From an uncultured Chloroflexota bacterium (GTDB lineage: Bacteria > Chloroflexota > Anaerolineae > Aggregatilineales > Phototrophicaceae), in NCBI GenBank assembly GCA_903864435.1, contig CAIPFY010000381.1:1-40733 (forward strand): DNA of 40,733 nt. Reading direction: 5' to 3'. A program made the position numbers and the translations under genes. Below the pieces are notes generated by a model. The model did not search any database. It saw only the letters and a list, made by a program, of their open reading frames with translations, and had not been told where the DNA came from. Below, piece by piece: positions 3,663-17,806 of the stretch (position 1 is the stretch's first letter; each line of letters begins with the position of its first letter).

Positions 3663-4556
3663 TTACTTAATTGCACCGCGTGAAAGGCCAGCAATAATCA
3701 ACCGCTGACCGAGGAGGATAATCATCAGCACGGGGATAATCATGAGGATGCTCAGGGCGCTCATCATGTCCCACGGTTTGGTGTAGGTCGAACCCGGATC
3801 GGTCAATTCGGTCAGGCCGACGCTCAGGGTTTTGGTGTCTACATTATGGGCGAAAACCAGAGGGTAAAGCAATTCGTTCCAGCTAATGATGAAATTAATC
3901 AGGAACATGGTGAACAGCGCCGGACGGATGAGGGGCAGCACCACCCGCAGGATGATCTGCCATGTGGTCGCGCCGTCAATGTAGGCGGCTTCTTCCACTT
4001 CGGCGGGAACCTGCTTGATGAACGACACCAGCGTCATGATAGTATAGGGCAAGACGAGGCTGCTCATGAGTATGATTAACCCGTGATGGGTGCTAATCAT
4101 CTTGAAGGTTTTGAGCGTTTCGAACATGGGCACAAGCACCGCGATCTGCGGCAGGGCTACCGAGAGGATGAGCGCCAGATAGACAATGTTGCTGCCGGGG
4201 AACTTGATCCGTGCCAGCGCATAGGCCGCCATACTGGCTGCCACTACCGATAGCGCCGAGGAGCCGGTGGCGAAGATTAGCGAGTTCCGGTAGTAGGTGA
4301 AGAATGGGACGGAATCGATCATGCGGGCGTAGCTATCCAGCGTGGGGGTGCTGGGCCAGTAACGGGGCGGCATTTCAAACAATTCGGTGGATGGCATGAT
4401 GGACGACACGAACACGAAGTAGAAGGGCGCACAGACGATGACCACGAAGATGGCGAAGCAGACGTATACCAAGATGGTCTGGGCGTAACGCTGCACAAAG
4501 CCGCTGGTGGACGGAGCAGCCTGTTCACGCGAGGGGATTACAGCCGAGGTGGTCAT
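3663..4556 (-). CDS. Carbohydrate ABC transporter permease, MalG/UgpE type (CUT1)
   Basis: Inner-membrane permease of 297 residues with about six transmembrane segments. The cytoplasmic EAA loop, which docks the ATPase, is seen at about residues 189-208 (EEAAYIDGATTWQI followed by LPL). Length and the short N-terminal tail before the first helix fit the second permease of CUT1 oligosaccharide importers. The ATG at 4556 is preceded by AGGA at good spacing and lies 12 bp after the stop of the partner permease. With that partner and the binding protein it makes the membrane part of a high-affinity sugar importer. No ATPase gene accompanies it, so it probably uses a shared MsmX/UgpC-type ATPase encoded elsewhere. 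Confidence 0.93.
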   Translation of the reverse strand: MTTSAVIPSREQAAPSTSGFVQRYAQTILVYVCFAIFVVIVCAPFYFVFVSSIMPSTELFEMPPRYWPSTPTLDSYARMIDSVPFFTYYRNSLIFATGSSALSVVAASMAAYALARIKFPGSNIVYLALILSVALPQIAVLVPMFETLKTFKMISTHHGLIILMSSLVLPYTIMTLVSFIKQVPAEVEEAAYIDGATTWQIILRVVLPLIRPALFTMFLINFIISWNELLYPLVFAHNVDTKTLSVGLTELTDPGSTYTKPWDMMSALSILMIIPVLMIILLGQRLIIAGLSRGAIK

Positions 4557-4568
4557 GCTTTCCTGCTT

Positions 4569-5495
4569 TCACTCGGACACATCGAAGCGGCGGAACAGAT
4601 ACAGCCCGATCGCGCCGACAATGGCGACGATGGCAACCAGCACCATGCCGATTGAAGCCGCATAGCCGTAGTTGAGCGAGTTGCTTTCGAGGTAGATTTT
4701 CTGCGCGATCACGGTGGTCGAGAAACCGGGGCCGCCACCCGTCATCAGGAAGGGGAGGTCGAACACCGCCAGTTGCCACACCACCATGAACATGCTGGTG
4801 GTGATGATGATGGGCATGACCATAGGGATGGTGATATAGCGCAGCGACGTGAACCAGTTCGCGCCATCCACGCGGGCGGCTTCGTACAAGTCCTGCGAGA
4901 TTCCCTGTAGACCCGCCAGCAGTACCAGCGCGACAAACGGCGTGCTTTTCCACACTGCCACCGAGATGACCGCGATTTTGGCGTTGGTGGGGTTAATCAG
5001 CCATTTCATTTCTAAGCCCACGTGCCGCAGCAGATCGGGGATCATGCCGAACTGATCGTCGAACATCCAGCGGAAGCCGAGCGCCACAATGACCATCGGG
5101 ATCGCCCACGGGACGAGGACGAGGGTGCGCGACAGCCCGCGAAAGCGGAAGGGGGCATCCAGCAAATGGGCGACGGCGAGGCCGAGCGTGATTTGAAGGA
5201 AGGTCGCCACCACCACGAAGGTCAGCGTGAAGCCGATGCTGGCGCGGACAACCGGATCGTTGGCGATGCGCTGGAAATTGCCGAGTCCGACGAACACGGG
5301 GCCTGTTGCGCCATCGAAGGCCGGGTTGAAGCGGTGCAGGCTGAGATAGGCGGTCTGGACGAAGGGGTAGAAGGCTGTGAAGACGCGCAGGGCTAAGGCC
5401 GGAATCAGCAAGATCACGGCGACCACATAGGTGCGCTGGCGGAAGGTTAACCCCTTGAAAGACTTTCGAGCAGGCGTGCGAGATAGAGTACTCAT
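4569..5495 (-). CDS. Carbohydrate ABC transporter permease, MalF/UgpA type (CUT1)
   Basis: Inner-membrane permease of about 308 residues with six predicted membrane segments and the EAA loop at about residues 205-223 (YEAARVDGANWFTSLRYI). It forms the permease heterodimer with the product of the next gene. I chose the ATG at 5495. A TTG two codons upstream (5501) is also possible, since a GAAG stands 5 bases before the TTG and 11 before the ATG. It follows the binding-protein gene after a 130 bp gap containing a strong hairpin, which could lower permease expression relative to the binding protein. Confidence 0.93.
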   Translation of the reverse strand: MSTLSRTPARKSFKGLTFRQRTYVVAVILLIPALALRVFTAFYPFVQTAYLSLHRFNPAFDGATGPVFVGLGNFQRIANDPVVRASIGFTLTFVVVATFLQITLGLAVAHLLDAPFRFRGLSRTLVLVPWAIPMVIVALGFRWMFDDQFGMIPDLLRHVGLEMKWLINPTNAKIAVISVAVWKSTPFVALVLLAGLQGISQDLYEAARVDGANWFTSLRYITIPMVMPIIITTSMFMVVWQLAVFDLPFLMTGGGPGFSTTVIAQKIYLESNSLNYGYAASIGMVLVAIVAIVGAIGLYLFRRFDVSE

Positions 5496-5561
5496 GGGCA
5501 ATTCAACTTCAGATTAATCTGATAACCATTTCGCAAAGAAAGGGATTTTTGGAGTACTGTA

Positions 5562-5625: not shown

Positions 5626-6948
5626 CTAGGTTCCCAGCGCGGCGATCTGTTCCTGTCCGTACTTGATGGTATCGGCCAGCGAAAGCTGGTTGGTCAGGAA
5701 TTGCGAAGCGGCATCGTCCACGACGGTCTGTGCTTCGGCAACACGCGCATGGAACGGACGGGCGGCGGGGACACCCGCAGCCGCGTAAGCGCCCATTGCG
5801 GTGAGGACGGCGTTTTCCTTGCCAGCGAACGCATCCAGAATGGATTTGCGCGGCATGATGAACCACGACTGGCCTTCCGCCAGCTTGGGCGCGATTTCGA
5901 CGGAGGTCAGGTACTTAATCAGTTCCTTCGCGCCGTCCATGTTGGGGGCGAATTTCGGAACCGAGAAGCCCCAGCCGCCCCACCACGCCTTGCTACCGGC
6001 TGCGCCAGCGGGCGGCAGTTCGATAGCGAGTTTTTCGGGAGCGAACCACGCGGTATCCCCTTCGGCAACGCTCTGGAAGAACGGCCACTGACGCATGACG
6101 GCCACCTTGTCGCTCATATAGAGCTGGTTCTGGGCGGTGTAGTCCTGATTCAGCGCATCTTCCGGGAAAATCTTGTGGGTGTAGATCATGTCGTACAGGA
6201 ATTGCAGGGCTTCGGCGGTGGCTTCGTCGAAGGCGAACACATCGCCGCCGGACTGCGCCGTGAGATACGCCACGTACACATACAGGAGCGCCGGCTTGAT
6301 GAGCGCGTCGGTGGTTCCCCACACGCCGTTGGCGGGGTCTGCGAGTTCCTTGCCGACGTTGACCAGTTCTTCCCATGTGGCCGGTGACTTCAGACCCTTC
6401 GAGTCCAACCAGTCCTTGCGGGTGAAGAAGTAGCCGATGGCAAATTCGTGCGGGATGCGATAACGCTGCCCGTCGAAGCTGTGGAATTTCTCGATCTGGC
6501 TGCCGAAGCTCTCCGGGAAGTCGTCCCAAGTTTCTTGCGGGATGATGTCGGTGAGGGGTTCGATGTAGCCGGCACGAATGAAGGTGGGCGAGTCATCGTC
6601 GGCATCGCTGATGACATCCACCGCGCTCTCGCCAGAAGCGAAGCTCGGTCCGTATTTGGTGAGCATGTCTGTACCGCTGGCGGGGCCGCCTTCAAGCTGT
6701 ACAGTCAAGCCAGTGCTGGCCTCGAAATCCGGCAGCACGGCCTTGATGGCATCATGGGCAAATTCCTGAATGGCAAGAACAACGGTCTTATTGTTCTGGA
6801 TGAGCGCGGGTGCATAAATGCCCTGAGTGAGGAAGCGACCGGGGGTGGCCGCAGCCAGTGCAGCTGCGATGCTCCCCGCTGAACCTTTGAGGAATGTCCG
6901 GCGGGTCATCCCTCGGCTAAAGAGAGTCTTTTTCTGTTTGCTGTCCAT
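5626..6948 (-). CDS. Extracellular sugar-binding protein of a CUT1 ABC importer
   Basis: Family 1 extracellular solute-binding protein of 440 residues. The N-terminus has a twin-arginine signal (TRRTFLKG, residues 15-22) followed by an Ala-rich hydrophobic stretch, so it is probably exported folded by Tat. The body matches the MalE/UgpB fold: an early GPASGTDMLTKYG-like segment, a central DWLDSKGLKSPATWEEL segment typical of sugar binders, and KAWWGGWGFSVPK near residue 315. The ATG at 6948 has AGGAG 8 bases upstream. It is the first gene of the leftward transport operon, with a good sigma-70 type promoter near 7029-7058 and a likely repressor site downstream of it. Next to an alpha-mannosidase, the ligand may be a mannoside or manno-oligosaccharide; the sequence does not show the ligand directly. 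Confidence 0.92.
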   Translation of the reverse strand: MDSKQKKTLFSRGMTRRTFLKGSAGSIAAALAAATPGRFLTQGIYAPALIQNNKTVVLAIQEFAHDAIKAVLPDFEASTGLTVQLEGGPASGTDMLTKYGPSFASGESAVDVISDADDDSPTFIRAGYIEPLTDIIPQETWDDFPESFGSQIEKFHSFDGQRYRIPHEFAIGYFFTRKDWLDSKGLKSPATWEELVNVGKELADPANGVWGTTDALIKPALLYVYVAYLTAQSGGDVFAFDEATAEALQFLYDMIYTHKIFPEDALNQDYTAQNQLYMSDKVAVMRQWPFFQSVAEGDTAWFAPEKLAIELPPAGAAGSKAWWGGWGFSVPKFAPNMDGAKELIKYLTSVEIAPKLAEGQSWFIMPRKSILDAFAGKENAVLTAMGAYAAAGVPAARPFHARVAEAQTVVDDAASQFLTNQLSLADTIKYGQEQIAALGT

Positions 6949-7005
6949 TCAATTCGCTCCTGTGCTAAATAATGGTCAATACTTGCGTTCGGTGCTATCA
7001 TCATG

Positions 7006-7021
7006 AATGGTATAGACAAGT
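7006..7021. promoter_or_regulatory. Probable operator of the local GntR-type regulator (site 1)
   Basis: AATGGTATAGACAAGT lies about 10 bases past the predicted -10 box of the transport operon, where bound repressor would block transcription. The core GGTATAGAC recurs, inverted, at 9817-9825 upstream of the regulator gene. From memory it also resembles the dre sites bound by GntR/HutC regulators such as Bacillus NagR. Regulation of both operons by the 9854-10948 product is inferred. Confidence 0.55.
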
Positions 7022-7028
7022 CAAGTCA

Positions 7029-7058
7029 AATATATAATCATTTTGCTGCTTTTGTCAA
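7029..7058 (-). promoter_or_regulatory. Sigma-70 type promoter of the sugar transport operon
   Basis: On the minus strand TTGACA (7058-7053) and TATATT (7034-7029) are separated by 18 bases. A start point near 7022 would put an operator-like sequence right at or after the first transcribed base and give a leader of about 70 bases before the ATG at 6948. A perfect TATAAT on the plus strand (7033-7038) overlaps it and could be the -10 box for the divergent mannosidase gene, though no good plus-strand -35 box is visible. Confidence 0.6.
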
Positions 7059-7079
7059 ACAGCGAAGAAGGATTAGGAC

Positions 7080-9788
7080 ATGGCGCAACATTATCAGGCG
7101 ACGCTGGTCAGCCATACCCACTGGGATCGGGCGTGGTACTGTACTTTCCAGGAATTTCGTATCCGCCTTGTTCGGCTGGTAGATAATTTATTGAGGATTT
7201 TGAAGGAAAACCCGGATTTTCATTATTTCATGCTCGATGGGCAGATGAGTGTGATCGAGGATTACCTCGAAGTGAGGCCGGAGAATGCGGCAGAGTTGCA
7301 GGCGTTGTGCCGCAGCGGGCGGATTCAGGTCGGCCCGTGGTTCGTGCTGGCGGATGAATTTCTGGTCAGCCCGGAGTCGCTCATCCGCAATTTGCGCTTG
7401 GGCCACCGCATGGGCGAAGCCTTCGGCGGGGTCGAGAAGATCGGCTATGTCCCGGACGGATTCGGACATATTGCCCAATTGCCGCAGATTTTGCGCGGGT
7501 TTGGGATTGATAATGCGTTCTTCTGGCGCGGAATGGGCAAAGAAGGGGATCGGTTGGGCACGGAGTTCATGTGGAAGGGGATCGGCGGCGAGGCCGTCAC
7601 CACCATTCTTATGCCGTGGGGCTATCACAACGTCACCAATCTGGGGTACGGGATTCACTGGGGCGATGTCTCGCAGATGATCTTCAACCCGGTGCTGGCA
7701 CAGGAGAAGATCGAACGCGCCATCAACAAACTGACCCCGATGGCGAACACCGATGGTCTTTTGCTCATGAACGGGATTGACCACGCCGAACCGGAGGCGC
7801 TCATCCCGCAGATCATCGCCCACGCGAACGACGAACTGGAAAACGCCACCGTGAAACATGGCCGCCTGCGCGATCATCTGGCGCGGGTTCGCGGGTCTGG
7901 CAAGGCGCTGGAACTGTTTGAAGGCGAGTTCCGATGGGGACGCTACAGCGAGATTTTGCAGGGCGTGTATTCGACGCGCATTCATCTGAAACAGGCCAAC
8001 CACAAGGGTGAAGTGCTGCTGGAACGCTATATGGAGCCGTTGAGTGCGATGGCGTGGCTCTCTGGCGCGGCAGTGCCGGAAGGTGTTCCGAGCTTGGCGG
8101 ATGTGGCGTGGCACTGGCTGATGCTGAATCATCCGCATGATGATATTTACGGCAGCGGCATTGATGAAGTGCATCACGAGATGGATTACCGCTTCAGCCA
8201 GTCCCGGCAGATTGGCGAGGCACTGGTGCGCGACAGCCTGCGCTGGTTGGCGCGGGAGGTGGATTACACCGGACAGACCGGGATACCGATTATCGTCTAT
8301 AACGCGCTGGGCTGGGGGCGCAGTGAAGTGGCGCAGGCCGAAGTGGATTTTGAATTTGACGACTCGCTGGCGGACAGCTTCCAGATTGTGGATGCGAAGG
8401 GCGCGGTGGTGCCGCATCAGGTGGTGCGGGATGAGCAGGTGTTCTGGATGGAAGTGCTGAAGCCGAACCGCAAGCGCCGTGTTCAGGTGTTGCTACCCGT
8501 GCGCGTTCCGGCCTGCGGCTATACCACGTTGTATGTGCAACCGCGTTCGGGGGCATCTCCGGCGGCAGGGCTGACGGTCAGCGAACGGCAGGCGGAGAAT
8601 GCGTTCCTGAAGTTGAGCGTGGCGGACGACGGCGGCTTGACGGTGGTGGACAAATCTACTGGCAAGACTTACAGCCAGTTGAATCATTTCTTTGATGTTG
8701 AGGACACGGGCGACGAGTATACCTATTGCCCGTTGCAGCATAATAGCCAACCCGTGAGTACCATCGGGCAGGCGGCCAGCATCACCTGCGTCGAAAGCGG
8801 CCCGCTACGCGCCCTGTATCGGATTGAGCGCGTGCTGCCCATCCCTTCGGGGCTGACGGCAGACCGCCAGATGCGTGCCGGGGATACCGTGCCGCTGCCT
8901 ATCATCTCCGAGGTGGCGGTGTTTGCCGATCAACCCGGTGTGTATATCCGCACGACCATTCACAACGCGGCGCATGACCACAAACTGACGGTGAATTTCC
9001 CCAGTGGCGTACAGGCGGCGCAGGCTTATGTGGACGAGTCGTTCATGGTGGCGGAGCGCGACTTGCAACTGCCGGACTCGACGGGGTGGGTGGAAGACCC
9101 GACGGCGTTGATGCACCAGCGCACCTTCACCGATTTGAGCAACGATGGTGCCGGTTTGGCGGTGCTGAATCGGGGGCTGCCTTCGGTGGAAGTATATCAG
9201 GATGGCACGATTGCGCTGACGCTGCTGCGCTGCGTGGGCTGGCTGTCGCGGGATGATCTGTGGGTGCGGCGCATCGCGGCGGGGCCACTGGTTCCCACGC
9301 CGGGCGCACAGTGCCTCGGAGATTACGAGTATGAGTACGCCATTCTGCCCCATGCCGGCGGTTGGCAGCAGGTGTACGCGCAGGCGCACAACTACAATGC
9401 CCCGTTGTTCGCCCGCCGTGCGGATACGCACCCCGGCCTCGAACTGCACGAGATGAACATCACCCGTGATGATCCGGCGAAGGTGACGAAAGCCCCATGG
9501 CCGCGTGGCGGCAAGCTGGCCGATCACTTTAGCTTTGTGACGCTTGACGCGCCGGAACTGACGCTCAGTGCCGCCTACCGCAGTGGGGAGCATCTGTTCG
9601 TGCGCTGCTACAACGTGACGCGCCAGCCGGTGCGGAGCGTGGTGACGTTCGGGTTGCCCGTACAGCAGGTGGAACGCGCCCTGATGAACGAGGAGGGTCT
9701 GGAGGTGCTGCCGCTTCAGAATGGCAAGTCTGTGGTGATCGAAGTGATGGGGGGGGAGGTGTATACACTGAAGATCAGTCCCGTTTGA
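7080..9788 (+). CDS. Alpha-mannosidase, glycoside hydrolase family 38
   Basis: A 902-residue GH38 enzyme without signal peptide, so it acts in the cytoplasm on imported mannosides. The N-terminal catalytic domain has the zinc-binding SHTHWDRAW motif (His14, Asp16), the nucleophile region YVPDGFGH with Asp126, and the HPHDD motif (His353, Asp354) that supplies a further zinc ligand. A helical middle domain and a long beta-sandwich C-terminal half (about 400-902) follow, as in bacterial mannosylglycerate- or oligosaccharide-cleaving members. The ATG at 7080 has AAGGA 8 bases upstream. It is the first gene of the rightward cluster and diverges from the sugar importer. GH38 retains anomeric configuration; substrate linkage and aglycone cannot be read from sequence. 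Confidence 0.93.
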   Translation: MAQHYQATLVSHTHWDRAWYCTFQEFRIRLVRLVDNLLRILKENPDFHYFMLDGQMSVIEDYLEVRPENAAELQALCRSGRIQVGPWFVLADEFLVSPESLIRNLRLGHRMGEAFGGVEKIGYVPDGFGHIAQLPQILRGFGIDNAFFWRGMGKEGDRLGTEFMWKGIGGEAVTTILMPWGYHNVTNLGYGIHWGDVSQMIFNPVLAQEKIERAINKLTPMANTDGLLLMNGIDHAEPEALIPQIIAHANDELENATVKHGRLRDHLARVRGSGKALELFEGEFRWGRYSEILQGVYSTRIHLKQANHKGEVLLERYMEPLSAMAWLSGAAVPEGVPSLADVAWHWLMLNHPHDDIYGSGIDEVHHEMDYRFSQSRQIGEALVRDSLRWLAREVDYTGQTGIPIIVYNALGWGRSEVAQAEVDFEFDDSLADSFQIVDAKGAVVPHQVVRDEQVFWMEVLKPNRKRRVQVLLPVRVPACGYTTLYVQPRSGASPAAGLTVSERQAENAFLKLSVADDGGLTVVDKSTGKTYSQLNHFFDVEDTGDEYTYCPLQHNSQPVSTIGQAASITCVESGPLRALYRIERVLPIPSGLTADRQMRAGDTVPLPIISEVAVFADQPGVYIRTTIHNAAHDHKLTVNFPSGVQAAQAYVDESFMVAERDLQLPDSTGWVEDPTALMHQRTFTDLSNDGAGLAVLNRGLPSVEVYQDGTIALTLLRCVGWLSRDDLWVRRIAAGPLVPTPGAQCLGDYEYEYAILPHAGGWQQVYAQAHNYNAPLFARRADTHPGLELHEMNITRDDPAKVTKAPWPRGGKLADHFSFVTLDAPELTLSAAYRSGEHLFVRCYNVTRQPVRSVVTFGLPVQQVERALMNEEGLEVLPLQNGKSVVIEVMGGEVYTLKISPV

Positions 9789-9825
9789 CAAAATGTACAT
9801 TTGTAAGTAGTCTAACGTCTATACC
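9784..9825 (+). promoter_or_regulatory. Regulatory region before the GntR/LacI-type regulator, with operator site 2
   Basis: TTGACA (9785-9790) overlaps the mannosidase stop. It is followed by the perfect 12-bp palindrome AAATGTACATTT (9791-9802) and then by GTCTATACC (9817-9825), the inverted copy of the GGTATAGAC core at 7009-7017. The -10 box is unclear. The palindrome recalls AraR-type operators in its TGTACA centre. The layout fits autoregulation by the regulator encoded just downstream, as a guess from position. Confidence 0.45.
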
Positions 9826-9853
9826 TTTTTGAGTTGGACTGGACAAGTTGTAA

Positions 9854-10948
9854 ATGCTGGATCGAAGTTCAAATGCGCCCCATCTGCACATGCAGGTGGC
9901 AGGGATGTTGAAAGATCGTATTCGGAGTGGTATCTGGCCGGATAGAACGGCTATCCCTTCCGAGAAAGAACTGTGTGCAGAGTTTGATGTGGCGCGGGGG
10001 ACTATCCGGCAGGCGCTGCAAACGCTGGAGAGCGAGGGCTATCTCATCCGCGAACAAGGGCGGGGGACGTTCGTTCATCTGGCGGAAGTGAATCAGGTGG
10101 CGCTGCGATCCAAGCGGTTGGCATTTGTCGTGCCTTACGTGCGCGACTCGTCCATTCCGACCATGCTGGTCGGGTTTCAGCAGGTGGCGGAAGAAGCGGG
10201 TTTCTCGGTGATCTTCAATCATGTGAATAACGATCAGTCGCAGCAAGAACGCGCTATCGTCAAGCTGATTGATGAGCATATCGCCGGAATCGGCTTGTAT
10301 CCGGTCAGTTCTGAAGAAATTTCGCTGGTTGAACGGCTGAAAGAGTCGGGTTTTCCGATTGTGCTGATTGACCGCTATTTGCGCAGTCTATCCACCGATT
10401 ATGTGATGACCGACCATTTCAGCGGGATTATCCGAGGGACGCAGTATCTACTCGATCTGGGTCATCGGCGTGTCGGGTTTGTGACGTGGCTTTCGCCCGC
10501 CGTCAGCATGGAACACCGATTTCTGGGCTACCGGCAGGCTTTGAGCGAACGACAAATCCCTTTCGATGAACGGTTGGTGTGCCGTGTGGAAGGTTATCCG
10601 GTGATTGATCTGACCCCGTTGCAGCAGTATCTCTCCGGTGAAGATCGCCCATCGGCGATTGTCGCCGCCAACGATCAGATCGCCATCGGGCTGTACCGGG
10701 CGGCGGCGAGTTTGTCGCTGCGAATCCCGGAAGATTTGTCCATCATCGGGTTTGATAATCTGGATGTTTCATCGCATCTCGACCCGCCGCTGACGACGAT
10801 TGCACAGCCGTTCCTCACCATCGGGCAGGTTGCTGCCAACTGTCTGCTGCGCCGGATTAGGGGCGAACAGAGTTATTACGAGCAAGTCACGCTGCAACCG
10901 GAACTGGTTATCCGTGATTCGTGTAGGGCGTTCCGGCTGAATGGCTGA
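9854..10948 (+). CDS. GntR-family regulator with LacI-type sugar-sensing domain (AraR-like)
   Basis: A 364-residue transcription factor. Residues 1-72 form a GntR winged helix (IPSEKELCAEFDVARGTIRQ as recognition region, then YLIREQGRGTFV as wing). Residues about 86-360 are a periplasmic-binding-protein-like effector domain as in LacI/GalR proteins (GHRRVGFVTW, AANDQIAIGLYRAA, LSIIGFDNLD, PPLTTIAQP). This fusion is the AraR architecture, normally a sugar-responsive repressor. It sits between the mannosidase and the methyltransferase genes, and GGTATAGAC sites lie before it and in the importer/mannosidase gap, so I infer that it controls these genes in response to mannose or a mannoside. The start ATG has only a weak ribosome-binding site. 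Confidence 0.9.
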   Translation: MLDRSSNAPHLHMQVAGMLKDRIRSGIWPDRTAIPSEKELCAEFDVARGTIRQALQTLESEGYLIREQGRGTFVHLAEVNQVALRSKRLAFVVPYVRDSSIPTMLVGFQQVAEEAGFSVIFNHVNNDQSQQERAIVKLIDEHIAGIGLYPVSSEEISLVERLKESGFPIVLIDRYLRSLSTDYVMTDHFSGIIRGTQYLLDLGHRRVGFVTWLSPAVSMEHRFLGYRQALSERQIPFDERLVCRVEGYPVIDLTPLQQYLSGEDRPSAIVAANDQIAIGLYRAAASLSLRIPEDLSIIGFDNLDVSSHLDPPLTTIAQPFLTIGQVAANCLLRRIRGEQSYYEQVTLQPELVIRDSCRAFRLNG

Positions 10949-11047
10949 AGCAGATCGCCAGCGCCTTGTATGCTGGAGTTGCTCATCAGGATACGTTAGG
11001 ATGCGTTTCATGCGTGGTCAATTAAGTGCCGTCAAGGAGTCTTGAGC

Positions 11048-11683
11048 ATGACGATTATTGATGAACTGCGGGAAGGCGTTATTCAGGGGCAGGCGAATGT
11101 TGCTCTTGAGAAGGTGAAAAAGGCGCTGGAAGAAGGTTATGCCGCTGATGTGATCCTGAATGAAGGACTCATCAGCGCTATGAGCAATGTCGGGCAGATG
11201 TATGAGGACGGAGTGGTATTCGTTCCCGAAATGCTGATCGCTGCCCGTGCGATGGATAAGGCGCTGCAAATTCTGCGCCCCTATCTGGTGGCTCAGGGCG
11301 TGAAACCGGTGGGCAAGGTGGCGATTGGGACGGTGAAGGGCGACCTGCACGACATCGGCAAGAAGTTGGTGGCGATGATGCTGGAAGGCTCCGGTTTCGA
11401 GATTATTGATCTGGGGATTGATGCGCCGCCAGAGAAGTTTGTGGATGCGGTGCAGAACAAGGGCGCGGATGTGGTGGCGCTCTCGGCGCTGCTCACCACC
11501 ACCATGCCGAACATGAAAACGGTGGTGGATGCCTTGAAACAGGCCGGTGTGCGTGACAAGGTGCGGATTATCATCGGCGGCGCGCCTGTGAATCAGGCGT
11601 ATGCCGACCAGATTGGTGCGGATGGCTACGCGCCAGACGCATCGAGCGCCGTCCGCAAAGTCCGCGAGATGTTGGGCGTATAG
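11048..11683 (+). CDS. Corrinoid protein of a methyltransferase system (MtaC/MtbC-like)
   Basis: A 211-residue cobamide carrier. An N-terminal helical cap (about 1-85) is followed by a Rossmann B12-binding domain with the base-off motif DLHDIG (Asp99, His101, Gly104), then LSALLTTTMPNM and IIGGAPVN. His101 would be the lower axial cobalt ligand. It receives a methyl group from a substrate-specific methyltransferase and passes it to an acceptor enzyme. The ATG at 11048 has AAGGAG 8 bases upstream, which rules out the in-frame TTG at 11042. It lies 99 bp after the regulator and 22 bp before the MtaB-like gene, its most probable donor partner. Family members serve methanol, methylamines, betaines or aryl methyl ethers; the adjacent MtaB points to methanol. 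Confidence 0.92.
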   Translation: MTIIDELREGVIQGQANVALEKVKKALEEGYAADVILNEGLISAMSNVGQMYEDGVVFVPEMLIAARAMDKALQILRPYLVAQGVKPVGKVAIGTVKGDLHDIGKKLVAMMLEGSGFEIIDLGIDAPPEKFVDAVQNKGADVVALSALLTTTMPNMKTVVDALKQAGVRDKVRIIIGGAPVNQAYADQIGADGYAPDASSAVRKVREMLGV

Positions 11684-11705
11684 CGCCAGATCAGGCAAAA
11701 CTCAC

Positions 11706-13088
11706 ATGGAGATTTATAAGCATCTGGCGGTCAAAGACCCGGATGATTTGATCTTTGGTCATTCCCCGCGCCCGTTGACTCTGCCGAACGGGTTGGTGAT
11801 CGGCGGCGGGTTGGTGTATCCCGAACTGAATTTCACCCTCCCGCCGATGTCCATCAGCGCCGAGACGATGCCCGAAATTCGCGAACAGTACCGTCAGATC
11901 ATCGAGAGCGCCTGTGCTAGGGCGGTTGATCTGTACGTGCCGGGGCTGGTGGTCGAATTTGAACTGCTGCCCGAAATGACCCGCACACCGGAATGGGGCG
12001 CGGAAATCACGGCTATCCTGCGCGACTGTCTGGATCGGTTTGCACAGCGTGACGGCCTGAAAAGTGCTTTGCGCGTCACGCCCAACGACATCCGCGAGTT
12101 TGAGCGTCCGCCCCGGATGCGCAGCGGTGGCCTGTGGGACGATATGATTCGCAGTTTTGAGTTGTGCGCGCAGGCCGGTGCGGATTTGCTGTCTATCGAG
12201 TCGACGGGCGGCAAGGAAATCCATGATGACGCGATCTTGTACGCCGATCTGCCGACGGTAGCGTATGCGCTGGGGGTGCTGGGCGCACGCGATATGACCT
12301 TCCTGTGGGACATGATCGTGCGCGTGGGGCTGAAGAATGGCGCTATTCCGGCGGGCGATACGGCTTGCGGCTTTGCCAATACGGCGATGGTGCTGGCGGA
12401 AATCCGGCATATCCCGCGTGTGTGGGCGGCGTTGATTCGCGTGATGAGCGTGGCGCGTAGCCTTGTGGCGTTCGAGCGCGGCGCGGTTGGCCCCGGCAAA
12501 GACTGCGCGTATGAAGGGCCGTACATCAAGGCCATCACGGGGTATCCGATTGCGATGGAAGGGGCGGAGGCGGCTGTCGCGCATTCGTCTCCCATCGGCA
12601 ATATCGCCAAAGCCACCGCCGATCTGTGGAGCAACGAGTCTGTGCAGAATGTTCGGTTGCTGGGCGGCGCTGCTCCCACCGTTTCGCTGGAACAACTGGC
12701 TTACGCTGCGCGGCTGATGAACACGGCGACGGAAGCCGGCCCGCATACTGCGCTCATGCTGCGTAACCTGTTCGTGGCTTCCGATACGACTTATGACCCG
12801 CAGGCGTATGTGCTGCGCCCGGATGTGGTCATTGACCTTTCGCGGGAGATCATCGCAGAGGAGACGGCCTACGGGCGGGTGCGGCGGGCGGCGCTGGCGA
12901 CGGCGCAATGCTTGCGGAAAGCGCATCATGACGGGTTGTGTCCGCTGTCGCCCCAAGAGGTGAACTGGCTGGATCGGCTGTCGAAGCAGGCGGACACGCT
13001 GCCGGAGGCCGAAGAAGCCTTGATCGAGCAGATGAAAGATCAAATTGACCCGGAGAAGATTCGCCAAGACCAGTACGGTCTGACGTAA
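11706..13088 (+). CDS. mtaB: Methanol:corrinoid methyltransferase, MtaB-like
   Basis: Zinc enzyme of 460 residues, the size of Methanosarcina MtaB. The three ligands known from that enzyme (Glu164, Cys220, Cys269) have counterparts at nearly the same positions: Glu165 in SIESTGGKEI, Cys221 in GDTACGFANTA and Cys267 in PGKDCAYEGPYIKAI. MtaB transfers the methyl of methanol to Co(I) of its corrinoid protein. The ATG at 11706 is supported by where homology to MtaB starts; the frame is open further upstream but only into the corrinoid gene. Placed between the corrinoid protein and the activator, it completes a methyl-transfer module. Conservation around the zinc makes methanol the most likely substrate; another small methoxy compound is possible. 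Confidence 0.9.
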   Translation: MEIYKHLAVKDPDDLIFGHSPRPLTLPNGLVIGGGLVYPELNFTLPPMSISAETMPEIREQYRQIIESACARAVDLYVPGLVVEFELLPEMTRTPEWGAEITAILRDCLDRFAQRDGLKSALRVTPNDIREFERPPRMRSGGLWDDMIRSFELCAQAGADLLSIESTGGKEIHDDAILYADLPTVAYALGVLGARDMTFLWDMIVRVGLKNGAIPAGDTACGFANTAMVLAEIRHIPRVWAALIRVMSVARSLVAFERGAVGPGKDCAYEGPYIKAITGYPIAMEGAEAAVAHSSPIGNIAKATADLWSNESVQNVRLLGGAAPTVSLEQLAYAARLMNTATEAGPHTALMLRNLFVASDTTYDPQAYVLRPDVVIDLSREIIAEETAYGRVRRAALATAQCLRKAHHDGLCPLSPQEVNWLDRLSKQADTLPEAEEALIEQMKDQIDPEKIRQDQYGLT

Positions 13089-13102
13089 GGGCAATTTAGA
13101 GG

Positions 13103-14956
13103 ATGGCAGGCACGATGAACGAACCCGCACATCGCCTGATTTTGATGCCCTCTGGACGGCAGGGGCAAATCGCACATGGGACGACGCTGCTGGAAGCATC
13201 CCGTTCGTTGGGAGTGGAACTGGAGGCGATCTGCGGCGGCAGGCAGACGTGCGGGAAATGCTTGGTGCATCCCGAACAGGGTGAGTTCTTAAAGCACGGG
13301 ATTCGCTCGGATGCCGATCATCTCAGCCCGCCGCAGGCCGATGAGCAAGCCTACGCCGCCGCGCATGGTCTGGATGTGCGCCAAGCGCGGATGGCTTGCG
13401 CGGCTCAGGTGATGGGGGATGTGCTGGTTCAGATACCTGATACCAGCCTCGCCCGTAAGCAGGCCATCCGTAAAGCGGCCGGCGATGTGCTGATCGAGGT
13501 AGCGCCTGCCGTCCGGTTGGTGTATGTGGAAGTGCAACCGCCTGCGCTGGGGTCGGCGGGCGATTGGGAGCGGGTGCAAGCGGCGCTTCAGGAGCAGCAC
13601 GGTTTGAGTGGGCTGCACATCGAACTGCCGCTGCTGCACAGCCTTCAGCGAACGCTGCGCGAAGGGCAGTGGAAGCTCACACTCACGCTCTGGCGCGATC
13701 AACAGGTGATTCGCATTGCGCCCGGTTATGAAGAGAGTTTGTACGGGCTGGCGGTGGATATTGGCACGACGACGGTGGTGGCGCATCTGTGCGATTTGCG
13801 TACCGGTGCGGTGCTGGCGACGCGGGCGGAGATGAACCCGCAGGTTCGCTATGGCGAGGATGTGATGAGCCGCGTTTCGTATGGGGTGAGTGAGGCGGGC
13901 GGGGTCGCCCGGATGCACCATGCGATTGTGAAGGCGCTGCATGATCTGGCGCTGGCCGCCGCGCAGGACGCGCAGATCGCGCCGGAGGACATCACCGATG
14001 TGGTACTGGTGGGCAATACGGTGATGCACCATCTCGCGCTCGGAATTGATCCGGTGGAACTGGGGCATGTGCCGTTCGCGCTGGCGACGGGCGAGGCACT
14101 GGATTTGAAAGCGCGTGATCTGGGATTAAAAGGAGTTGCGCCTTTGGCGCAGGTTCATGTACTGCCGTGTATTGCGGGGTATGTGGGCGCGGACGCGGTG
14201 GCGGTACTGCTCTCCGAGTATTCGCTGCTGGATGCAGATGGAGCGACGCTGATTATTGATGTGGGGACGAATGCCGAGATTCTGCTGATGGCGGGGGAGC
14301 GTATTCTGGCGGCCTCCAGCCCGACGGGGCCGGCGTTCGAGGGCGCGCAGATCAAGCACGGGCAGCGGGCGGCTACCGGCGCGATTGAACGCTTCCGCAT
14401 TGACCGGAAAACGGGGGCAGTGCGCTATCAGGTGATCGGTGATTCGCGCTGGAGCGATGCGCTGCCGACGGGGGGAACGCTGGTTACGACGGGCATTTGC
14501 GGGTCGGGCATTATCGAGATTGTGGCGGAACTGTTTTCCGTTGGCGTGATTTCGGCTACCGGACGGCTACCGCCGAATGCCAACCATGCGCGGGTGCGGG
14601 CGGCGGGGGTATCCGGCGAATTTGTGGTTGCCACTGCCGACGAGAGTGCGACGGGCAGCGAAATTGTGGTCACGCAGCAGGATATTCGTGCGATTCAACT
14701 GGCGAAGTCGGCGCTATACGCGGGGGTGCGCCTGCTGATGGATCACATGGGCGTGAGTCGGGTGGATCACATCAAACTGGCGGGGGCGTTCGGCAGTTAC
14801 ATTGACCCGCGCTTTGCGATGGCGATTGGTCTGATTCCTGATTGCGACCTGAGTCGGGTGGTTTCGGTGGGCAACGCAGCCGGGGGATGGCGCTCGAATC
14901 GCGCTGCTCAATCGGGAGCAGCGGCAGGAGGCGGAACGGTTGGCGCGGCGTGCTGA
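13103..14956 (+). CDS. Reductive activator of corrinoid proteins (RACE), C-terminus frameshifted
   Basis: As read, 617 residues. An N-terminal plant-type [2Fe-2S] ferredoxin domain has Cys44, Cys50, Cys53 and Cys99. A linker follows, then a DUF4445/ASKHA ATPase-like domain from about 215 (VDIGTTTVVAHL, VLVGNTVMHHLALG, LIIDVGTNAEI, TGICGSGIIEI). Such proteins use ATP to reduce inactive Co(II) to Co(I) in corrinoid proteins, here presumably the MtaC-like protein. The last residues (WRSNRAAQSGAAAGGG...) are unlike any relative: after VGNAAG the family continues GDGARIALLN, which is present in the +1 frame and runs to 15092. One extra G in the G5 run at 14882-14886 explains it. ATG 13103 or 13115 may be the start, as the GAGG touches the first. 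Confidence 0.88.
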   Translation: MAGTMNEPAHRLILMPSGRQGQIAHGTTLLEASRSLGVELEAICGGRQTCGKCLVHPEQGEFLKHGIRSDADHLSPPQADEQAYAAAHGLDVRQARMACAAQVMGDVLVQIPDTSLARKQAIRKAAGDVLIEVAPAVRLVYVEVQPPALGSAGDWERVQAALQEQHGLSGLHIELPLLHSLQRTLREGQWKLTLTLWRDQQVIRIAPGYEESLYGLAVDIGTTTVVAHLCDLRTGAVLATRAEMNPQVRYGEDVMSRVSYGVSEAGGVARMHHAIVKALHDLALAAAQDAQIAPEDITDVVLVGNTVMHHLALGIDPVELGHVPFALATGEALDLKARDLGLKGVAPLAQVHVLPCIAGYVGADAVAVLLSEYSLLDADGATLIIDVGTNAEILLMAGERILAASSPTGPAFEGAQIKHGQRAATGAIERFRIDRKTGAVRYQVIGDSRWSDALPTGGTLVTTGICGSGIIEIVAELFSVGVISATGRLPPNANHARVRAAGVSGEFVVATADESATGSEIVVTQQDIRAIQLAKSALYAGVRLLMDHMGVSRVDHIKLAGAFGSYIDPRFAMAIGLIPDCDLSRVVSVGNAAGGWRSNRAAQSGAAAGGGTVGAAC

Positions 14957-15092
14957 ATATGTGGAAACGGCTGCCCACCCCCGCTTTCACGAGTATTATG
15001 TTGATGCCATGACTTTCCCTCATGCCAGCGATTCATTCCCTCATTTTGAGCAGTTTCAGGCTGACCTTTCTGAATCAGGAACTGGATATTAA
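14886..15092 (+). other. Out-of-frame C-terminal coding segment of the RACE gene
   Basis: In the frame beginning GAT at 14886 the DNA encodes GDGARIALLNREQRQEAERL and onward to a TAA at 15090-15092. This is the usual tail of RACE proteins, including the ARRAEYVE and HPRFHEYYVDAM segments. Restoring it would give a protein of about 662 residues and leave only 9 bp before the next gene, matching the tight spacing elsewhere in the cluster. The cause may be an assembly error in a G-run, a real inactivating mutation or programmed slippage. Confidence 0.8.
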
Positions 15093-15101
15093 AGCGAGAA
15101 G

Positions 15102-15992
15102 ATGATGCGTACCTCATTAAGTCAACTGCTGGAATCCCATTCGGTCATCGTGGCGGATGGGGGGATGGGAACGATGTTGTTCGCGCTGGGGTTGCAGCGG
15201 GGCAGCGCACCGGAACTGTGGAATGTGGGACACCCGGATGCCGTCCGGTCTGTTCACAGCAGGTATATCGGCGCGGGCGCACAGATCATTCTGACGAACA
15301 CCTTTGGCGGAAGCCGTATTCGTTTGGCGATACATGGGCTGGAGGAACGGATGGCGGAGTTCAACCGCGCCGGGGCGCAACTGGCGGGGATGGAAGCGGA
15401 ACAGGCGGCGCATCCGGTGGTGGTGGCGGGTTCGATAGGCCCTTCAGGGCAGATGTTGACTCCGTTCGGCGATCTGGAATTTGAGGACGCGGTGCAGGTG
15501 TTCGCAGAGCAGGCGGCGGCGCTGGCGGAAGGCGGCGCGGATGTGCTGTGGATAGAAACCATGTCCGATTTACAGGAGGTTCATGCGGCGGTGGAAGGCT
15601 GCCGGCAGCGAGCGCCACAACTGCCGCTGGTGACGACCATGACCTTTGACACGCACGGGCGGACGATGATGGGCGTGAAGCCGGAGCAGGCCATCAAGAC
15701 ACTGAGCGATTACGGGGTGATTGCGCTGGGGGCGAACTGCGGCAACGGACCGGATGAACTGGAAGCGGTGATCGAGAAGATGCACCAGACGCAACCAGAG
15801 ACAGTGCTGGTGGCGAAGGCGAACGCTGGCATGCCGCGCATGGAAGGGGATACGCCGGTTTATGAGGCCACGCCGGATGTGATGGCGGAGTATGCGCTGC
15901 GCGTCCATAAACTGGGTGCGCGGATTATCGGTTCCTGCTGCGGCAGTACGCCCGACCATATTGCGGCTATCGCCAGCGCGCTGAAGGGTTAG
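15102..15992 (+). CDS. Stand-alone homocysteine S-methyltransferase-family protein
   Basis: A 296-residue protein with the TIM-barrel homocysteine-binding domain of MetH and betaine-homocysteine methyltransferases. Motifs are DGGMGTMLFALG (19-30), GAQIILTNTFGGSR (58-72), and the three zinc cysteines Cys213 (GANCG) and Cys279-Cys280 (IGSCCGSTPDHI), which activate the homocysteine thiol. There is no folate, B12 or reactivation domain. Lying in a row with a corrinoid protein, its methyl donor and its activator, it could take the methyl group from the separate corrinoid protein to make methionine or methylate another thiol. This is inference; the family also includes enzymes using S-methylmethionine or betaine. 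ATG 15102 or 15105 may be used. Confidence 0.88.
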   Translation: MMRTSLSQLLESHSVIVADGGMGTMLFALGLQRGSAPELWNVGHPDAVRSVHSRYIGAGAQIILTNTFGGSRIRLAIHGLEERMAEFNRAGAQLAGMEAEQAAHPVVVAGSIGPSGQMLTPFGDLEFEDAVQVFAEQAAALAEGGADVLWIETMSDLQEVHAAVEGCRQRAPQLPLVTTMTFDTHGRTMMGVKPEQAIKTLSDYGVIALGANCGNGPDELEAVIEKMHQTQPETVLVAKANAGMPRMEGDTPVYEATPDVMAEYALRVHKLGARIIGSCCGSTPDHIAAIASALKG

Positions 15993-16000
15993 GCGCGGCG

Positions 16001-16738
16001 ATGACACACTACGTTGCTCTCACCTGTTCGGCGCTGGCGCGCAGCGTGTACGCGGTGGCGGCAGATTCACAGCCGATCATCAGCGTGCGCCTGTTCGATC
16101 AGGGGTTGCACAACGTCCCCAAGAATCTGCGGGCGCGGCTACAGGCAGAGATCAACGCGATTCCGGCGGGATCGTGTGATGCGATATTGCTTGCCTACGG
16201 GACATGCGGGCTGGCCACCGTTGGCCTGCAATCGCATTCGATACCGCTGGTCATCCCCCGCGCACACGACTGCATCACGCTATATCTGGGTTCGCGCCAG
16301 CGTTACAGCGAGGAATTTGATGCCGACCCCGGCACGTACTGGTACAGTCAGGATTATCTGGAGCGCAACCCCGATTCGAGCGTGGCGCTGGGCGCTGCCA
16401 GCATCCAGATCAGCGAAGCGGTGTATCAGCAGTATGTGGCGAAATACGGGCAGGAGAACGCCGATTACCTGATGGAGGTGATGGGCGAGTGGGGCAAGCA
16501 CTACAACCGGGCGGTCTATATTGATACCGGTTTGCAGGGGGGCGCGCAGTATGAGCGGATCGCCCGTGAGCAGGCCGAACGGCGCGGCTGGCGATTTGAA
16601 CGGCGCGAAGGGGATCGCCGCCTGCTGCATATGCTCATTAATGGTGAGTGGTCGGAAGACGAGTTCCTCATCGTGCCGCCGCAGCACCGCATTCAGCAGA
16701 TGGCGGACGACCGTTTGATACAGGCCGTGCCGCTGTAG
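16001..16738 (+). CDS. DUF1638 family protein of corrinoid methyltransferase loci
   Basis: A 245-residue soluble protein matching DUF1638. Conserved stretches include ILLAYGTCG (62-70), a PRAHDCITLYLGSR segment (about 87-100) and GTYWYSQDYLERN (about 110-122). DUF1638 genes are frequently found beside corrinoid methyltransferase and RACE genes, but no reaction is established. An acceptor or accessory role in methyl transfer is suggested only by company. Conserved Cys and His in the CG and HDC segments could bind metal. The ATG follows the previous stop by 8 bp with an AGG at proper spacing, so it is in the same operon. Confidence 0.8.
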   Translation: MTHYVALTCSALARSVYAVAADSQPIISVRLFDQGLHNVPKNLRARLQAEINAIPAGSCDAILLAYGTCGLATVGLQSHSIPLVIPRAHDCITLYLGSRQRYSEEFDADPGTYWYSQDYLERNPDSSVALGAASIQISEAVYQQYVAKYGQENADYLMEVMGEWGKHYNRAVYIDTGLQGGAQYERIAREQAERRGWRFERREGDRRLLHMLINGEWSEDEFLIVPPQHRIQQMADDRLIQAVPL

Positions 16739-16741
16739 CGA

Positions 16742-17806
16742 TTAGCGCGAATACCAGCCGTGTTCGCGCACGGTTTCGTAGAGTGCGAGTATATTTTCGA
16801 CGGGCGTTTCCCCCAGTACGTAGTCGTGGCTGGGGCAGGCCACATAACCGCTGCCCGGTTTCATGATCTCCAGAACGCGGCGTGTTTCGGCTGCGGCGGC
16901 CTGTGGCGTGCCGTCAATCAACAACTGCGTATTGATCGCGCCCATCAGCACCAACTGACTGCCGAACGCGGCTTTAAGGCCAGCAGGCTCCATACCCCGG
17001 CAATTAGGCTGTAGCGCCTGAAGCCCGTCCAGACCCGTTTCGATCAGCGCGGGGATGAGGGGGGCGAATCCGCCGCAACAGTGCAGCAGGACTTTGAGGC
17101 GGTAGTCGTGACCCAGATCAATCAGGCGCTTGAGATGGGGGATGAGGAAGCGCCGGAACAACCCTTCACCGAGCAGCGGGCCGGTCTGCGAACCAAAATC
17201 ATTCCCGATGAAAAAGATGTCGATCACATCGGCGGCGGCATCGAAAATGCGCTGGCTGACGGCTGCGTAGTAATCCAGCAGGCGTTCAAACAGCGCGTCT
17301 ACTATCGCGGGCGAATCGTACATGCAGAGCATGAGCGTATCCATGCCCATCAGGTCAATGGCATCGTGCCAGAAGGGCGACCATTCGCCGCCGAGGATGG
17401 CATAGCGGTTATGAAAGGCGCTGGCTTCGGCGCGAATATGCGAAACATCCACCCATTCGGGGTCAGGCCAGTCGTAGTTGTTAATTTCGTCAGCGGTGGT
17501 GGCGTGTTCTAGCGGGTGGCTGATGGGCTGTCCGCCCTCATAGCCGTGCCGTAGGATTTTGAAGGGGGAACGGAAGGTCACGCCGGGGGGCAGGTTGGCG
17601 TAAGGGCTGCGCTCTTGCGGGCCAGCGTAGCGGGTGGTGACGCGCCGGAAATCGTCCCCCACCCACAGCGAAAGGCTTTCGTCATCGGGCAGGTTCAGAT
17701 GTTGAATGGCTTTTTTGCGAAAGGCGGGTGAAGCGCCGAGCCAGACCGGTACGCGGTCTGGCTCTTCAAAGGCGAACGTGGTCAGCACTCTGTCTCTGGA
17801 ATTCAT
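16742..17806 (-). CDS. Uroporphyrinogen decarboxylase-family methyltransferase, MtaA-like
   Basis: A 354-residue TIM barrel of the URO-D/MtaA superfamily. It begins MNSRDRVLTTFAFEEPDRVP, the usual start of this branch. It keeps a zinc motif HxC...C: His242 and Cys244 in LLHCCGG and Cys324 in YVACPSHDY, nearly the same spacing as His237, Cys239 and Cys316 of Methanosarcina MtaA. Such proteins move methyl groups between a corrinoid protein and a thiol or folate rather than decarboxylating porphyrin. It is convergent to the methyl-transfer cluster with 3 bp between stops, and has its own promoter region at 17807-17953. It may be the acceptor-side enzyme. The ATG is preceded by AAGGGG at good spacing. 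Confidence 0.85.
   Translation of the reverse strand: MNSRDRVLTTFAFEEPDRVPVWLGASPAFRKKAIQHLNLPDDESLSLWVGDDFRRVTTRYAGPQERSPYANLPPGVTFRSPFKILRHGYEGGQPISHPLEHATTADEINNYDWPDPEWVDVSHIRAEASAFHNRYAILGGEWSPFWHDAIDLMGMDTLMLCMYDSPAIVDALFERLLDYYAAVSQRIFDAAADVIDIFFIGNDFGSQTGPLLGEGLFRRFLIPHLKRLIDLGHDYRLKVLLHCCGGFAPLIPALIETGLDGLQALQPNCRGMEPAGLKAAFGSQLVLMGAINTQLLIDGTPQAAAAETRRVLEIMKPGSGYVACPSHDYVLGETPVENILALYETVREHGWYSR

Follow-up and report, generated by a model that had tools for sequence, protein, structure and literature searches.

We describe a locus in a 40,733-nucleotide stretch of DNA (the window) from an uncultured Chloroflexota bacterium of the family Phototrophicaceae (GenBank assembly GCA_903864435.1, contig CAIPFY010000381.1), in which a GH38 alpha-mannosidase-type hydrolase and a GntR/LacI-type sugar regulator are followed on the same strand by genes for corrinoid-dependent methyl transfer. 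The window is one whole contig of a 5.39 Mb assembly in 464 contigs that is 94.5% complete. The best explanation we can offer, and a tentative one, is that the cell makes methionine without folate and under the control of mannosides, drawing the methyl group from methanol by way of MtaB, a predicted methanol:corrinoid methyltransferase. The sugar-responsive regulator would act on the divergent promoter between the GH38 gene and the gene for a sugar-binding protein (SBP), and the GH38 transcription unit would run on into the methyl-transfer module. MtaB would load the methyl group of methanol onto an MtgC-type corrinoid protein, from which a stand-alone homocysteine methyltransferase (HcyMT) would pass it to homocysteine, so that methionine forms with no need of folate. 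A reductive activase, RACo, and a DUF1638 protein would keep the corrinoid reduced and active. Every protein belongs to a known family; it is the combination of parts that looks new.

Genes were named from a list of open reading frames (ORFs) and from Pfam and NCBIfam profile scans of the window proteins. The plus strand carries, in order, the GH38 hydrolase (7080..9788), the AraR-like regulator with a GntR-type helix-turn-helix and a LacI-type sugar-binding domain (9854..10948; Pfam GntR and Peripla_BP_3), the corrinoid protein (mtgC, 11048..11683), mtaB (11706..13088), the RACo/RACE-type activase (13103..14956), the MtgE-like single-domain HcyMT (15102..15992), and the DUF1638 protein (16001..16738). 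The gaps between them are, in the same order, 65, 99, 22, 14, 145, and 8 bases. An earlier note on this DNA had described this series with short gaps on the GH38 strand, opposite a divergent CUT1 importer, and the ORF list and profile scans bear out both the importer and the regulator, MtaB, RACE, HcyMT, and DUF1638 genes. The GH38 protein has the N-terminal, middle, and C-terminal GH38 domains of Pfam, and its residues H14, D16, D126, and H235, which we take to be catalytic, are invariant across nine orthologs. The nearest solved structures are 3LVT, 5KBP, and 2WYH. Like MngB and other bacterial GH38 enzymes, it has all three domains, and the PRK09819 profile matches over positions 7–864 of 885. 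However, the score of 469.7 bits against a cut-off of 1138 does not allow it to be called the mannosylglycerate hydrolase MngB, and the window enzyme differs in its company of an ABC importer, a GntR/LacI regulator, and methyl-transfer genes.

The corrinoid protein has the B12-binding and B12-binding_2 domains of Pfam, the latter being its N-terminal cap, and keeps the DxHxxG motif as GDLHDIG with H101. It scores 231.1 bits with the NCBIfam model MtgC_2, under the cut-off of 370, yet this is its top-scoring model, ahead of MtbC (194) and of two MtaC models (128.4 and 124.5 bits against cut-offs of 450 and 420). We therefore rejected the name MtaC, which the earlier note had used, and call it a protein of the MtgC kind. 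By sequence, its nearest solved relative is 1Y80, a “predicted cobalamin binding protein,” and among eight B12-binding matches in the genome it alone lies in an open frame of about 200–230 residues. MtaB matches Pfam MtaB with 525.9 bits over profile positions 4–459 of 460, and its residues E165, C221, and C267 align with E164, C220, and C269 of 2I2X, presumably the zinc ligands of that structure. The start at 11706 is more plausible than an upstream ATG at 11601, which overlaps the corrinoid gene. No match to MtaB was found among 72,556 plasmid records. MtaB, RACo, and DUF1638 each have one copy in the window’s genome, and all three are at this locus. Elsewhere, loci L025, L026, and L027 (genomes G238, G099, and G275) encode MtaB-like proteins of 60–62% identity in which both zinc cysteines are replaced (one by Gly, the other by Ala or Ser), and that of G099 also has Gln for the zinc-ligand Glu. 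Their genes have no MtgC in the stretch and adjoin one for a protein of 369–396 amino acids, of which the one copy scanned had no Pfam match; judging by these residues, the MtaB-like proteins probably have a different activity.

The methyl acceptor is most likely homocysteine, reached through the MtgC-type carrier and the MtgE-like enzyme, because a homocysteine methyltransferase is the one acceptor enzyme that we found to go with the module. This protein of 296 amino acids is a single S-methyl_trans domain (PF02574, profile positions 1–283 of 283), scores just above the cut-off of NCBIfam PRK07534 (339.1 against 338 bits), and keeps C213, C279, and C280 in an alignment with MetH (1Q7M); we assume these to be the zinc cysteines of the homocysteine site. 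No stand-alone pterin-binding or folate methyltransferase was found in the window’s genome. Its sole pterin-binding match is inside a 1203-residue frame that also bears a B12-binding domain and is thus MetH-like. None of the 12 genomes searched has a protein of the MttB family. RACo has the linker, middle, and C-terminal domains of its Pfam families and N-terminal cysteines at positions 44, 50, 53, and 99. The DUF1638 protein (136 bits with Pfam DUF1638) is likely an accessory of B12 reactivation. In the parts covered of two published studies, homologues of MtgC, MtgE, RamA, and DUF1638 make methionine in Phaeobacter and Ruegeria together with a pterin-binding protein (PMC5764234, PMC12478193); the Phaeobacter DUF1638 homologue is needed for methionine synthesis, and the sections covered assign it no specific role (PMC5764234). 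MtgC and the pterin-binding MtgD of Ruegeria pomeroyi are also described there in glycine betaine demethylation (PMC12478193). Near HcyMT/MtgC modules of other genera (L127, L125, and L121), we also observed a CobW-type GTPase (family c23; the L127 copy was scanned).

Control by sugar is suggested by a conserved operator-like site. A near-palindrome with the consensus TTGTCTAWACAA lies in the divergent SBP/GH38 promoter. It is exact in genomes G401, G400, G418, G415, and G421 and has one mismatch in G399, G409, and the window, where it reads TTGTCTATACCA (7008..7019, minus strand); it was not found in the SBP/GH38 promoter of G420. We scanned 44 loci (30 with GH38 and 14 others; 686 kb) allowing up to one mismatch. 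This gave 28 sites. Of the 30 GH38 loci, 18 have at least one, and the 14 others have none; 26 of the sites lie within 260 bases upstream of the start of a cassette gene (SBP, GH38, GntR, DUF455-like, or the URO-D gene U1). The 44 loci include close relatives, so not all 28 sites are independent. Twenty-nine exact control palindromes with a shuffled half-site averaged 0.9 sites and reached at most three, a comparison slightly generous to the operator since the controls lack the motif’s degenerate base. In the window alone, three sites with up to two mismatches compare with 2.2 expected, and the evidence for the operator therefore rests on the comparison across loci. We infer that the GntR/LacI protein binds the site.

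No such site precedes mtgC, either in the window (up to two mismatches) or in the relatives scanned (up to one). A strong terminator between 10948 and 11048, which the earlier note had named as contrary evidence, was looked for, and no terminator-like site was found in this 99-base gap. Given the conserved operator in the SBP/GH38 promoter, sugar control of the downstream methyl-transfer genes, as the earlier note had supposed, is likely; as mtgC has neither a site of its own nor a terminator-like site before it, such control would come about by read-through from the GH38 promoter. A GC-rich hairpin without a T-run lies between GntR and mtgC in G418 (L072, 12324–12458) and G415 (L073, 13759–13882), which might be an attenuator or a repeat.

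We next compared 98 genomes of the family. GH38 is found in 21 of them (E ≤ 1e-60), 16 with at least 57% identity, and MtaB is found in four. Leaving aside three of the 16 whose contigs end at or near GH38 (G413, G432, and G427) gives 13 readable loci, including the window; five further GH38 matches at 38–47% identity were left out of the locus counts. The regulator–MtgC pair is present in seven of the 13. Six of these have the order GH38-GntR-MtgC (the window, G401, G400, G418, G415, and G421), and the seventh, G420, has the pair on the importer side. MtgC was not found in the stretch of the other six loci (G399, G409, G083, G398, G403, and G436). MtaB directly follows MtgC in three of the 13, namely the window, G401, and G400. 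In G418 and G415, MtgC is followed by RACo, HcyMT, and DUF1638. In G421, there is no RACo in the ~750 bases from MtgC to the contig end, and RACo, HcyMT, and DUF1638 are ~32 kb away on the same contig. The GH38-GntR-mtgC arrangement is more than chance, because, outside the window, the order occurs in five genomes, which represent two genera, and a sixth genome has the GntR-mtgC pair. The recurrence of a GH38-GntR-mtaC-mtaB series, which the earlier note had put forward as a check, thus stands for the first part of the order and fails for MtaB in most loci. Likewise, its proposal of methyl capture on a corrinoid beside GH38 is partly upheld by a corrinoid methyl-transfer gene in seven of 13 loci, though the acceptor is most likely homocysteine, in place of coenzyme M or folate, and few of the loci have a methanol enzyme. 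Methyltransferase genes elsewhere in relatives, which it had regarded as speaking against the link, do occur, and this objection holds in part: they are seen in G436, where MtaB, a URO-D gene, MtgC, RACo, HcyMT, and DUF1638 share one contig and GH38 is on another.

Phylogenetic trees of MtgC, HcyMT, and RACo hold 16, 16, and 14 rows, respectively, made up of ORF-caller copies from chosen loci plus the G400 MtgC added by coordinates; further copies, such as that on contig C202 of G407, were left out. The GH38-linked MtgCs (seven of the 16 rows, from two genera) form one clade with 100/100 support, apart from copies elsewhere. The GH38-linked HcyMT and RACo proteins, three rows each, group in the same way with weaker support (82/83 and 81/60). 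The MtaBs that adjoin MtgC do not form one clade, in a tree made without G331 (stops in the chosen frame) and a second, partial piece of G389 (L033). Therefore, the link between GH38 and MtgC probably arose once and was then kept, while the donor enzyme varied; the relatives without MtaB suggest that the donor enzyme is exchangeable. A wider scan of named genomes with a GH38 alignment yielded 159 relatives, and from these we retained 80 loci. Among their Chloroflexota loci, the importer, the regulator, the URO-D genes U1, U2, and U4, DUF455-like and 2Fe-2S ferredoxin genes, and GH31 recur. Five of the 80 carry MtgC (L129, L130, L131, L132, and L151, the counterparts of G418, G415, G421, G420, and G401), and MtaB is in L151 alone. 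A phylum-wide search found GH38 at E ≤ 1e-150 in four of 400 genomes, the window’s own included.

The gene convergent to DUF1638 (16742..17806, minus strand) encodes a protein of the URO-D superfamily. The earlier note had called it MtaA-like, and this name had to be dropped, as it scores 54.8 bits against a cut-off of 235.4 for MtaA/CmuA and 41.2 against 400 for MtaA, and is under the MtbA cut-off too. The metal ligands of MtaA are, we assume, an HxC motif plus a later cysteine; the window protein keeps the motif as H242-C243-C244, and its C324 aligns unclearly with the MtaA cysteine. The nearest fold to a predicted model (mean pLDDT 77.7) is MtaA (4AY8, TM scores 0.68/0.70), with URO-D decarboxylases (HemE) close behind. 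It is a possible corrinoid methyltransferase, and we are unsure whether it belongs to the system at all. Its orthologs in G418, G415, G399, and G409 (72–76% identity) are away from the GH38 locus. A 72% identical gene is in the GH38 locus L149, adjoining a DUF455-like gene, and a 64–65% identical one is within a URO-D/corrinoid cluster of G418. Elsewhere in the window’s genome, contig C400 carries U1, U2, U4, a second DUF455-like gene, a ferredoxin, and GH31.

URO-D genes are also found together with MtgC-like genes in relatives. A URO-D and an MtgC-like corrinoid domain share one frame in L265 (5429–7381; G399, 650 amino acids) and L266 (4673–6619; G409), a layout that we take to resemble CmuA. 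In L267 (G418, contig C291, 345–6184), an MtgC-like gene lies amid four URO-D genes, an arrangement that resembles an mlp gene cluster. Given these one-frame genes and the four URO-D genes around MtgC in G418, it is reasonable to suppose that URO-D proteins are donor-side partners of MtgC where MtaB is absent. URO-D, MtgC-like, RACo, and pterin-binding genes are clustered off the GH38 locus in G420 (C3:629484–633384) and, with DUF1638 as well, in G421 (C20:80434–90842), perhaps as folate-linked methyl-transfer sets.

The importer operon runs on the minus strand from the SBP gene (5626..6948; Pfam SBP_bac_1, with a TAT-signal match under its cut-off), which adjoins GH38 in relatives, through a MalF-like (4569..5501) and a MalG-like (3663..4556) CUT1 permease, both BPD_transp_1, to a DUF455-like protein as the final gene (2397..3638). 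The latter scores 27.4 bits with Pfam DUF455 (3e-06), under the cut-off of 34.3; a relative from family c3 in L070 scores 35.2. Two ExxH motifs, E271/H274 and E352/H355, are invariant in nine sequences of two subfamilies, in an alignment that leaves out L150 (a stop in the chosen stretch), L149, L143, and L161. The protein is probably ferritin-type. A Foldseek search with its model matched ferritin-type proteins, with toluene 4-monooxygenase at the top and PaaC and an aldehyde-deformylating oxygenase lower down; no match had E ≤ 0.001, and an oxygenase role therefore stays a guess. Nothing useful on DUF455 was among the literature matches listed. Two DUF455-like proteins (window 2397–3638; L070 2242–3645) and a 2Fe-2S ferredoxin (L035, 784–1059) accompany the GH38 set, and a DUF455-like protein and ferredoxin could possibly form a diiron enzyme.

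Methanol as donor and homocysteine as acceptor, with methyl groups flowing from the one to the other, are favored by the contiguity of the MtgC-type carrier, RACo, HcyMT, and DUF1638, and by MtaB lying beside the same genes in G436, off GH38. That the methanol comes from an imported mannoside is plausible and is the least certain part of this explanation. A number of observations weigh against the explanation as a whole. MtaB (404 against 720 bits for the NCBIfam equivalog MtaB_Meth) and MtgC both score below their NCBIfam cut-offs. RACo has a frame shift near 14884, with its last ~58 residues in another frame to about 15059 by tblastn; either a mutation or a fault in the assembly could explain this, and the RACo proteins of relatives are unbroken at 648–702 residues in our own ORF calls. 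Because MtaB is in so few of the readable GH38 loci, methanol is not a constant donor, and in G418 and G415 MtaB was not found anywhere in the genome. G420 has the GntR-MtgC pair without a single-domain HcyMT or DUF1638, and the nearest RACo is about 43 kb off. RACo, HcyMT, and DUF1638 were not found in G401 and G400; since both contigs end inside MtaB, this reads equally as gene loss or as missing sequence. A full-length MetH-like protein is encoded, so methionine supply alone is insufficient to explain the module. Finally, the absence of a folate acceptor is not firm. Six of the 12 genomes searched (G399, G409, G418, G415, G421, and G420) have pterin-binding proteins of about 290–350 residues, and the window’s genome also yielded no dihydropteroate synthase-like match, a hint that sequence is missing or that folate has a different source.

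If the module instead served general methyl salvage and methionine supply, its place behind GH38-GntR would be an inherited operon fusion with no metabolic link to mannosides. Genomes G399, G407, G279, G409, G436, and G440 have RACo-HcyMT-DUF1638 off GH38, mostly with MtgC, and the contig of G427 reaches far enough to show RACo and HcyMT; a single linking event may account for all copies in the one MtgC clade, and nearly half of the readable GH38 loci have no MtgC that we could find. However, the GntR-mtgC pair stayed intact through the rearrangement to the importer side in G420, the GH38-mtgC link was retained in two genera, and URO-D genes recur next to the GH38 set, and we regard this reading as rather unlikely. 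It is very unlikely that the methyl group ends on tetrahydrofolate or coenzyme M, the route of acetogens and methanogens, in which a pterin-binding or URO-D protein would be the second methyltransferase. A set made up of MtaB, RACo, a corrinoid protein, and a URO-D protein does resemble an Mta system, the fold nearest to the URO-D model is MtaA, and clusters with pterin-binding genes exist in G420 and G421; against this, the operon encodes a homocysteine methyltransferase, the genome yielded no stand-alone pterin-binding protein, and the URO-D protein both falls far below the MtaA and MtaA/CmuA cut-offs (41 and 55 bits against 400 and 235) and has its orthologs in four relatives off the GH38 locus.

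A more specific substrate can also be considered. GH38 could free methanol or a methyl sugar from an O-methylated mannan or methyl mannoside, with MtaB and URO-D proteins demethylating and MtgC collecting the methyl groups. GH38 does occur together with MtaB, U1, U2, and U4 adjoin the set in relatives and are carried by contig C400 of the window’s genome, an operator-like site is upstream of U1 in L128, and G399 and G409 each have a URO-D protein fused with an MtgC-like domain. Such a substrate exists in mycobacteria, whose methylmannose polysaccharide is described, in the text covered, as alpha-(1→4)-linked 3-O-methylmannose with a methyl aglycon and unmethylated mannose at the other end (PMC9883506). 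It would yield methanol and an O-methyl sugar, in keeping with the presence of GH38, MtaB, and the URO-D proteins. Most of the 80 loci with URO-D genes lack MtgC, however, the third metal cysteine is unconserved in U1, U2, and U4, and the URO-D proteins could serve another function, which makes this an unlikely alternative to the methanol-fed route. Even less probable is a dedicated O-methylated alpha-mannan pathway in which fragments are imported and cleaved by GH38 and GH31, MtaB takes the aglycon methanol, URO-D proteins (perhaps with the DUF455 diiron protein and ferredoxin) remove ring methyls, and sugar-induced MtgC delivers them to folate-free methionine synthesis. Candidate substrates would include fragments of methylmannose polysaccharide that bear a methyl aglycon, and O-antigens of 3-O-methylmannose. 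If true, this would be a corrinoid route to carbohydrate O-demethylation.

The MtaABC methanol system of Methanosarcina and methylotrophic bacteria uses a corrinoid carrier and a reductive activase. The window shares both with it, along with the zinc ligands of MtaB, but its carrier is MtgC-like rather than MtaC, its URO-D protein scores too low with the models to count as MtaA, and the methyl group most likely goes to homocysteine in place of coenzyme M or folate. To our knowledge, coenzyme M or folate is the acceptor in MtaB systems. The MtgC/MtgE modules described draw methyl groups from glycine betaine or folate, in the text covered (PMC5764234, PMC12478193). The split methionine synthase and MtgBCDE systems of Phaeobacter inhibens and Ruegeria pomeroyi, as far as these sources were covered, have in common with the window an MtgC-type carrier, a stand-alone homocysteine methyltransferase, a RamA-like activase, and DUF1638; their donor enzyme is the MttB-family MtgB for glycine betaine, whereas that of the window is MtaB for methanol. 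Unlike theirs, the module of the window is part of a GH38 operon that includes a sugar-type regulator, and the window’s genome encodes a full MetH-like protein and, as far as our search found, no stand-alone pterin-binding MtgD. Type 1 mlp clusters likewise have no folate methylase in the clusters described, but they are defined by Mlp2 and Mlp3, and MtaB and GH38 are not named among their genes in the text covered (PMC10418091). The “core” methionine synthases MesA–MesD also make methionine independently of folate, from methyl-corrinoid or other donors, and are described in the part covered as related to MetE, whereas the window enzyme is a PF02574 domain, as in MetH (PMC7857596). Among the literature matches listed for MtaB with methionine synthesis, for MtaB with a mannosidase, and for corrinoid demethylation of methylated sugars, which cover few subscription papers, we found no description of such a combination of genes.

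If our explanation is true, an operon in which sugar governs both MtaB and a stand-alone homocysteine methyltransferase would tie methyl metabolism to the turnover of polysaccharides in Anaerolineae. It would also suggest a route by which the methyl groups of methylated sugars may be reclaimed.

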